The translations under genes were made by a program, and so were the position numbers. From Candidatus Altarchaeum sp. (lineage in GTDB: Archaea > Altiarchaeota > Altiarchaeia > Altiarchaeales > Altiarchaeaceae), in NCBI GenBank assembly GCA_018260755.1, contig JAGTWP010000058.1, positions 119 through 8,276 on the forward strand: a DNA stretch of 8,158 nucleotides. The letters are read 5' to 3'. Position 1 is the first letter of the stretch; each line of letters starts with the position of its first letter. The notes under the pieces were generated by a model. It was given only the letters and a program-made list of their open reading frames with translations, did no database searches and had not been told where the DNA came from. Positions 4,075 to 6,353 of the stretch are shown piece by piece.

Positions 4075-5601
4075 ATGAGGTGTCCGGAATGTAAAGGGAT
4101 GTTGTTCATATTTGATGAACAGATAGAAAAAGACAAAGCACAACAAAAGGCAATAAAACAGTATTTAAAAAATATAACTCTGCCAGTGGAATTTGGCGAT
4201 AAAGAAAATTTAATGAAAAATTTAGAAGATGCCGAATATGTCTACAAAAAGGGAATGATTGAAATTAGGGGAAAAAAAGGAATAATCGGAAATTTAACTT
4301 TAAAAAGTGATATAAAGATAGATAAAAGATACGGCTGTCAAAACGGGGGAGATGCAGTAATTTATCCTCTCGGAAAGGCAATATTTGAAGATGGTCAGAC
4401 AAAAATATATTCCGACAATGGTGATGGAGGAGAATACCTGTTCAAGCTTGAAGAATTTTCAGGGTCTAAAGAAAAGCAAACAATCTTATGGGAAATTTTA
4501 AAGAAAAATTTAGATAAAAACATTATTGATAAAGCCACTTTGTTGATTAGCCTGGAAGAGCCCGAAATAAGCAATGAAGGAAGTGAAATACTTGTTAAAA
4601 AAGAAAACAGAGCAATCCTTCTAATTTATTTAAAATGTGTTTTTACACCTGCTTCGTTTGCGTATTCGGAAAAGGGAAAAAATTTTTCAATTGGCTTTAC
4701 CGAAAAGGTAAACAACAAACTCCGGATATTTTATGAAAGTGCTTTTCCGGATGTTAAGACAGGCGAGATTGTGTGCTCAAATTGCGGAACGATTATTGAC
4801 TCCGAGATGATAGATACAGGTGCCGAATGGCGTTCATTTGACAGCGGACAAAAAGAAAAAAGATCAAGGGCAAGCGGTGCAATAAAAGATGCAAAGGTAA
4901 GTAAGGGATTAACAACGGAAATAGACCGCTACGACAGAGATGCAAAAGGGGGTGGATTTGAAGTGGAAAGAAAAGTTGAACTGTATAGGATGAGACGACT
5001 ACAAACAAGAAGCAGAATGAGCGACAGTGCAGGTAGAAATTTATCAATAGCTCTTCCGGAACTTGACAGAATGTGCAGTTTGTTAGATATAGGAGAAACA
5101 ATAAAAGAGGAATGCGCTCACTTATACAGACAAGCGGTAGATAAGGGATTTGTCAAAGGAAGAAGTATAGAAAGTATAATAGGTGCAATAATATGCTATG
5201 TAACCAGAAAGAAAGGAGAGCCAAGAACATTAGAAGAAATAGGGGAAAAAAGCGGGATATCAAAAAAAGAAATCGGTAGAAGTTATAAACATATACTTAA
5301 GTCCATGAATCTGAAACCGCCAAGAACAAATGTAGAAGATTATATTGCTCTGTATGCTTCAAAAATAGGAATTTCAAATACCGCTGAAGAAGAAGCTCAG
5401 AAAATACTTAAGGGAGCAATGAAATATGGAATTACCGCCGGGAGAGGTCCTTCGGGGGTTGCGGGAGCAATTATAAGTTTGGCATGTGAACAGATTGGAG
5501 AGAATTTTCCAAAGAAAGAATTGTTGGAGTTGGCAGGAATTACGATGTCAACACTCCACAGCAGACATGAAGAAATTAAAAGTAAATTAAAGCTAAATTA
5601 A
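4075..5601 (+). CDS. tfb: Transcription initiation factor B (TFB) with a ~210-residue insertion in the zinc ribbon
   Basis: TFB binds TBP-TATA DNA and recruits RNA polymerase. At 508 residues this one is far longer than the usual 300-350. The zinc ribbon starts normally (MRCPECKGMLFIFDE; Cys3, Cys6) but its second half, KTGEIVCSNCGTII (Cys234, Cys237), comes only after ~210 extra residues. In ordinary TFBs these halves are joined by a short turn. The B-reader/linker is recognisable (GAEWRSFDSGQKEKRSRASG, 249-268; SKGLTTEID, 276-284). Two cyclin folds follow: ~308-410 (RSIESIIGAIICYVTR; LEEIGEKSGISKKEIGRSYK) and ~415-508 (GPSGVAGAIISLA; ending helix-turn-helix KKELLELAGITMSTLHSRHEEI). The insert is one uninterrupted frame with normal codon use, resembles nothing I recognise, and has mixed alpha/beta character with several beta-like stretches. 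No intein ends are present. The ATG at 4075 is the only start that keeps the first Cys pair. The methyltransferase gene begins 18 bp after the stop. Confidence 0.93.
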   Translation: MRCPECKGMLFIFDEQIEKDKAQQKAIKQYLKNITLPVEFGDKENLMKNLEDAEYVYKKGMIEIRGKKGIIGNLTLKSDIKIDKRYGCQNGGDAVIYPLGKAIFEDGQTKIYSDNGDGGEYLFKLEEFSGSKEKQTILWEILKKNLDKNIIDKATLLISLEEPEISNEGSEILVKKENRAILLIYLKCVFTPASFAYSEKGKNFSIGFTEKVNNKLRIFYESAFPDVKTGEIVCSNCGTIIDSEMIDTGAEWRSFDSGQKEKRSRASGAIKDAKVSKGLTTEIDRYDRDAKGGGFEVERKVELYRMRRLQTRSRMSDSAGRNLSIALPELDRMCSLLDIGETIKEECAHLYRQAVDKGFVKGRSIESIIGAIICYVTRKKGEPRTLEEIGEKSGISKKEIGRSYKHILKSMNLKPPRTNVEDYIALYASKIGISNTAEEEAQKILKGAMKYGITAGRGPSGVAGAIISLACEQIGENFPKKELLELAGITMSTLHSRHEEIKSKLKLN

Positions 5602-5619: not shown

Positions 5620-6353
5620 ATGTCAAATTTTGAATTTGACGGGTGCAAATACAGGAATGCTTCAAAACATCAAAAGGAATGGGTAAATAAAATCATCTCC
5701 GAACTAAATCTAAAAGGAGATGAAAATATATTGGATTTAGGTTGCGGTGACGGAGTGTTAACAAAACAACTCTATGATCTGGTTCCACAAGGATATGTTT
5801 TAGGTGCATATGCTTCAAAAGGAATGATGGACACAGCTAAAAAATCAGAGAACAAAAATCTCAAATTTCAATTAATGGATATTAATGAGCTCAATTTTTC
5901 AAATGAATTTGACTTGATTTTTTCAAATGCCACCCTGCATTGGATTAAAGACCACAAAAAATTACTTGTAAATTGCCATACTGTTTTGAAATCCGGCGGA
6001 ATAATCAGATTTAATTTTGCAGGAGATGGCAACAGCTCAAATTTTTTTGCCGTTGTTAAAGAAGTAATTAAATATAAGGACTTTCATAAATACTTTGAGA
6101 AATTCATAAATACTTTGAGAAATTTCAATGGTCGTGGTATATGCCAACAATTGAAGAATATAAATCATTAGCAAAGGACTCAAATTTTGCTAATATTGAT
6201 GTTTGGGGCGAGAACGCAGACAGATATTTTGATAACGTCGATGAAATGACACGGTGGATAGACCAGCCGTCACTTGTGCATTTTTTAAAACAGATTGACG
6301 ATGAGAAAGACAGGAAAATTTTCCGCGATAAAGATACTAAATTTTTTAAATGA
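5620..6353 (+). pseudogene. Frameshifted SAM-dependent methyltransferase (trans-aconitate methyltransferase-like)
   Basis: Class I methyltransferase features are clear: HQKEWVNKII near the N-terminus, motif I ILDLGCGDGVLTKQL (37-51), MDINEL (86-91), FDLIFSNATLHWIKDH (97-112) and LKSGGIIRFNFAGDG (123-137). The overall order resembles Tam-like trans-aconitate methyltransferases, but the substrate is not proven. A perfect 20-bp tandem duplication (6085-6104 and 6105-6124) shifts the frame. The upstream frame stops at 6171, while the true continuation QWSWYMPTIEEYK...WGENADRYF...WIDQPSLVHFL runs in another frame to 6353. Deleting one copy rebuilds one ORF of about 237 codons. Other decay signs: residue 64, normally the acidic ribose-binding residue after beta 2 (GIDAS-type), is Tyr (GAYAS), and the C-terminus seems ~15-30 residues short. 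The stop overlaps the rhomboid ATG (ATGA). A sequencing or assembly error could explain the shift alone. Confidence 0.8.
6085..6124 (+). repeat. Perfect 20-bp tandem duplication inside the methyltransferase gene
   Basis: The unit cataaatactttgagaaatt occurs twice head to tail. Twenty is not a multiple of three, so the duplication shifts the frame. Removing one copy gives FHKYFEKFQWSWYMPTIEE, a smooth family-like reading. Confidence 0.95.

Follow-up and report, generated by a model that had tools for sequence, protein, structure and literature searches.

Introduction

Few components of transcription initiation in archaea and eukaryotes are as well conserved as TFB (TFIIB in eukaryotes) and its zinc ribbon. 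In TFIIB structures, the ribbon docks on the dock of the RNA polymerase, and the loop that joins its strands is found at the opposite end from the zinc. TFB genes bearing an intein exist, for example in Methanocaldococcus jannaschii. TFB and TBP are kept in most DPANN genomes (PMC8407392, an Altiarchaeum paper that names TFB). We found no description in the open-access literature of the two features reported here, an Altiarchaeum TFB with a split zinc ribbon and an enlarged Altiarchaeum TBP.

Results

The TFB of Candidatus Altiarchaeum carries 213 residues between its two CxxC pairs

The window, that is the whole stretch of 8,158 nucleotides that was analyzed, belongs to contig C15 of a 1.3 Mb genome that is 85% complete. 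Its TFB ORF (4075-5601, forward strand) encodes a protein of 508 aa with the N-terminus MRCPECKGMLFIFDE. As the original prediction had it, the CxxC pairs at residues 3/6 and 234/237 are read in one continuous frame, all 508 codons of which are open. The parts that follow were expected to be intact and are so: the reader/linker region contains KGLTTEIDRYDRD and ERK..LYR.R..Q.RSRM, both common to the split TFB and the TFBs of the class, and the core matches PF00382 in two stretches (102 bits, Pfam) corresponding to the two TFIIB cyclin repeats. The core also matches the solved archaeal TFB core 1d3u (E 2.4e-40), as well as 1ais (E 3.3e-40). The parts of the protein are given in Table 1.

Table 1. 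Predicted parts of the split TFB and their positions in the window
Feature	Coordinates	Strand	Basis
Residues 1-14: first knuckle (C3, C6) and first zinc-ribbon strand	4075..4116	+	Completes PF08271 from position 1 once joined to residue 228 onward; PWM 26.1
Residues 15-227: insert (213 aa)	4117..4755	+	No known family; genus-restricted; dN/dS 0.26-0.39
Residues 228-255: second half of the zinc ribbon (C234, C237), up to EWRSF	4756..4839	+	PF08271 14-43
Residues 256-320: B-reader / B-linker (QKEKRSR...KGLTTEIDRYDRD...LYRMRRLQTRSRM)	4840..5034	+	Comparison with class TFBs
Residues 321-508: two TFIIB cyclin repeats	5035..5598	+	PF00382; 1d3u

The split architecture was found in all four Ca. Altiarchaeum genomes, with TFB lengths of 500-508 aa, length differences of whole codons and frames open in every case. 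The four sequences compared were those of the window, HURL_140/G003, G002 and A3/G001, the proteins of G003 and G001 being identical to those of HURL_140 and A3 and thus counted once each. The best-segment identity of the window TFB gene is 85% with Candidatus Altarchaeum sp. HURL_140 (L008) and 77% with Candidatus Altiarchaeales archaeon A3 (L009). Within the genus, residues 227-320 are 90-99% identical, and C3, C6, C234 and C237 are unchanged in the alignment of the four sequences. These genomes are fragmented and the two named records are metagenome-assembled, which might favor an artefact joining two genes; however, four genomes, two of them the named records JAGWDQ and MTER, share the architecture, so that a frameshift or misassembly, one of the outcomes that would have overturned the original prediction, can be set aside as having a negligible probability. 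In HURL_140, a TnpB-like transposon-type frame (L008, 4436-5623) is inserted directly upstream of the TFB gene. In the window, a SAM-dependent methyltransferase-like gene at 5620-6353 appears to be divided into two overlapping frames (5620-6171 and 6141-6353), perhaps reflecting a frameshift.

The first CxxC motif probably belongs to the zinc ribbon

The intact window TFB matches PF08271 at positions 14-43 only (39.7 bits, above the 29-bit Pfam cut-off). When residues 15-227 were left out in silico, a complete PF08271 ribbon was obtained (positions 1-43, 51.5 bits), and the joined halves of the three relatives scored 51.2, 50.2 and 42.1 bits. The C-terminal half alone reaches 34.7 bits in the window, and the scores of C-terminal halves alone are 34.7 and 38.1 bits. 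These scores bear out an insertion between the two knuckles, where the ribbon turns (51.5 versus 34.7 bits), with the caveat that class ribbons such as that of L030 (CPDCKGILITDYKHGEVICKKCG) guided the choice of the junction, so that the gain is partly due to where the borders were set. The position proposed earlier (about residues 16-226) stands with slightly shifted ends, the best junctions placing the insert between D14 and K228.

We also scored the first knuckle with a position weight matrix (PWM) built from 45 distinct class ribbons, with 203 further CxxC peptides, taken from the retrieved ORFs, as a null set. The window knuckle, with a score of 26.1, falls inside the range of the class ribbons, and none of the 203 null peptides scores as high; the same is true of HURL_140. 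For G002 and A3, the knuckle is matched by 11/203 and 78/203 null peptides, and the test does not discriminate there. An AlphaFold2 model of residues 1-256, made from three sequences (window, L008 and L009), has a pLDDT of 36.6.

A broken zinc site could be proposed, in which the first CxxC is vestigial or part of a separate N-terminal domain and docking is achieved by half a ribbon or otherwise. The first knuckle is indeed the least conserved part of the ribbon, that of A3 (CQECRGTVFVFG) doing no better than the 78 unrelated CxxC peptides mentioned above, and a degenerate first knuckle is known in other TFB paralogues of the class (L067, L071 and L072, f3 g12; e.g. ECDHPKKIKDYSRGEVYCAKCG). 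However, the four cysteines are invariant in the genus and, once joined, the halves of each of the four sequences reach a full-ribbon score, which makes a broken site quite improbable. We infer that the two knuckles probably still come together round one zinc ion.

The insert is restricted to one genus and is under purifying selection

Among the 29 genomes of the phylum, the insert is present in four, all of the same genus, and the ordinary TFBs of the class are devoid of it. Outside the genus, none was found in 394 archaeal genomes, apart from a chance-level match (E 0.0067) interrupted by three stops. Searches against Pfam, NCBIfam, PHROGs and PDB returned chance-level matches and no family, and IMG/VR gave no match; the insert, described earlier as unrecognised, remains so.

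Counted on residues 15-226, the dN/dS of the insert is 0.26-0.39 over six pairs, compared with 0.03-0.08 for the C-terminal ribbon and reader and 0.08-0.17 for the core. These values lie well below 1 and above those of the rest of the protein, indicating that the insert is constrained as a protein, less so than the other parts of TFB. Purifying selection acts on the insert. In addition, four of its blocks, KIDKRYGCQ, KKNLDKNII, LLIYLKCV and IFYESAFP, are nearly or fully invariant.

Since the insert sits in frame and cleanly in a conserved site, its removal from the RNA or the protein as an archaeal intron or intein-like element could be considered. It has no intein-type ends (no Asn precedes Cys, Ser or Thr at the C-terminal border), and no Hint-type Pfam match was obtained in the window TFB. 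Base pairing across the junctions is average, with a duplex energy quantile of 0.51, at the random median, in a simple duplex test of the pairing expected for a bulge-helix-bulge (BHB) intron. Together with the selection observed at the protein level, these results make removal very improbable.

The split TFB is probably the general factor of the genus

Whether the split protein is the general factor or a specialised paralogue was left open by the original prediction. In a maximum-likelihood tree built from 58 TFB cores, the split TFBs fall inside the TFBs of the class, joined to an ordinary TFB of G007 with a support of 98/90, the bootstrap being short of fully settled. The stem of the split clade is long (1.45), and its exact sister is therefore unsure. 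A PF00382 survey detected the split TFB as the only member in G002 (87% complete), the split TFB and one divergent TFB in G000 and G001, and both of these together with two core-only fusions in G003. No other canonical TFB was found in the four genomes, which are incomplete.

The divergent protein (C33 type; L001, L031 and L037) has an unsplit ordinary ribbon and two TFIIB repeats. A second full TFB with an ordinary ribbon, for which a survey had been proposed, thus exists in G000, G001 and G003; canonical it is not, given its branch of 3.57 changes per column in the tree, and it was not seen in G002. Because of its unsplit ribbon and its two repeats, this protein might be taken as the general factor, the split TFB then being a specialised paralogue. 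Its far greater divergence and its absence from the matches of the 87% complete G002 genome argue against this, as do the class-wide reader/linker sequence and near-invariant core retained by the split factor, and we judge such an exchange of roles improbable. The split TFB is probably the working general factor of the genus, given the tree, the reader/linker sequence and the strong divergence of the alternative TFB, with some room for doubt because the genomes are incomplete.

Other TFB-related proteins were observed in the course of the survey. In HURL_140 (L010, 5368-6573 and 8589-9740), tandem helical repeats (ENVRNELLLKLAEKD...) are fused to a TFB cyclin core devoid of ribbon and reader, and a repeat-only protein of 621 aa is encoded between the two fusions. 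In L034 (G023:C14), the frame of a TFB paralogue runs on into apparent tandem CBS domains. G010 and G024 gave no TFIIB-repeat or TFB-ribbon match, yet TBP, TFE and Rpo1 were found in them; G010 consists of only about 10 contigs.

TBP is enlarged in the same genomes and the polymerase dock is of ordinary length

TBP is 464-476 aa long in the same four genomes (L134-L137: G001, G002, G003 and G000), versus about 190 aa in relatives. The additions consist of about 198 N-terminal residues and of about 100 residues in the first repeat, the latter sitting between the strand NIVASI and RFPGIVYR. A second TBP in G003 (L138, 635 onward) has 318 aa and a shorter N-domain. A portion of the TBP N-domain is also present in several further proteins of the genus, as well as in a few other archaea. 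A module of about 60-70 residues resembling part of it (WNNVPGKD...W..AKIEKS) was seen at G000:C67:1582-2970 and elsewhere in the genus, and a frame of 1119 aa near the TBP gene contains several copies of such a module. No homology was detected between the insert of TFB and the additions to TBP, using profiles of four close sequences, which have little power. The insert and the additions co-occur once, on the stem of one genus, and thus amount to a single coincidence. The TBP enlargement beside the split TFB lends plausibility to a remodelled initiation complex.

TFE was found in G000, G002 and G003, with weak matches only in G001 (65% complete), and it carries a Lys-rich N-terminal extension in the genus. 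Rpo1 is present, with a dock of ordinary length. The dock has no excess of genus-specific changes (10/49 conserved dock positions versus 64/379 elsewhere; Fisher P 0.55), its borders having been set for this count from sequence motifs, and so gives no sign of co-evolution. With TFE and Rpo1 both present, the insert is not obviously a stand-in for them; as a replacement of TFE it was rejected, TFE being detected in three genomes.

These data bear on whether the insert is a lineage-specific expansion of little function that is merely tolerated, the ribbon working despite it. It changes several times faster than the remaining TFB, with indels, the Rpo1 dock has no co-evolution signal, and the extra parts gained by TBP and TFE could reflect a habit of the lineage. 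However, its dN/dS is well below 1 in all pairs, its conserved blocks are nearly or fully invariant, and Rpo1 and the window genes other than TFB are of ordinary length, so we regard mere tolerance as unlikely.

Discussion

We favor, with a probability of roughly 0.55, a general TFB with an insert looped out of its ribbon and serving a contact function at the polymerase surface. About 213 codons would have entered in frame, in the ancestor of the genus, into the loop joining the two N-terminal zinc-ribbon strands. Because this loop and the zinc are at opposite ends of the ribbon, an insertion in the loop can spare the zinc site and project outward. The two CxxC knuckles would share one zinc, leaving the ribbon able to dock on the polymerase, and the insert, for which we infer a separate fold, would loop out opposite the zinc end as an extra module. 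It would most likely make a lineage-specific protein contact near the dock on the polymerase surface, perhaps with an Altiarchaeum-specific partner. This contact could form part of an initiation complex in which TBP, too, was enlarged, by an N-terminal domain and by an insertion, which would link the TFB and TBP additions. The wider proposal of a rebuilt basal initiation complex, in which a folded module in the TFB ribbon and the TBP additions together give the pre-initiation complex a layer of lineage-specific contacts, is more tentative, and we hold it to be possible rather than probable. If true, a 213-residue insertion in what is apparently the sole canonical TFB, beside an enlarged TBP, would mean that the basal complex is open to remodelling from the inside, and the split ribbon would offer a natural way to probe what can be fitted at the dock region of the polymerase.

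Compared with known systems, the Altiarchaeum protein has the ribbon halves, the reader/linker and the two cyclin repeats of archaeal TFB and eukaryotic TFIIB (PF08271 and PF00382) in the same order, and differs by the 213 extra residues between its knuckles, which are separated by 14-15 residues in all in class relatives. Its core and reader/linker are closely related to those of the ordinary Altiarchaeota TFBs (e.g. L013, L030 and L039), whose ribbon is compact and without insert. A large in-frame insertion is shared with the intein-bearing TFB genes, whereas the Altiarchaeum insert is devoid of intein ends and of a Hint domain, is placed within the ribbon and is apparently retained in the protein. 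Finally, if the contact-layer reading is true, the additions to Altiarchaeum TFB and TBP would be comparable in role to those of eukaryotic general factors, and different in origin.
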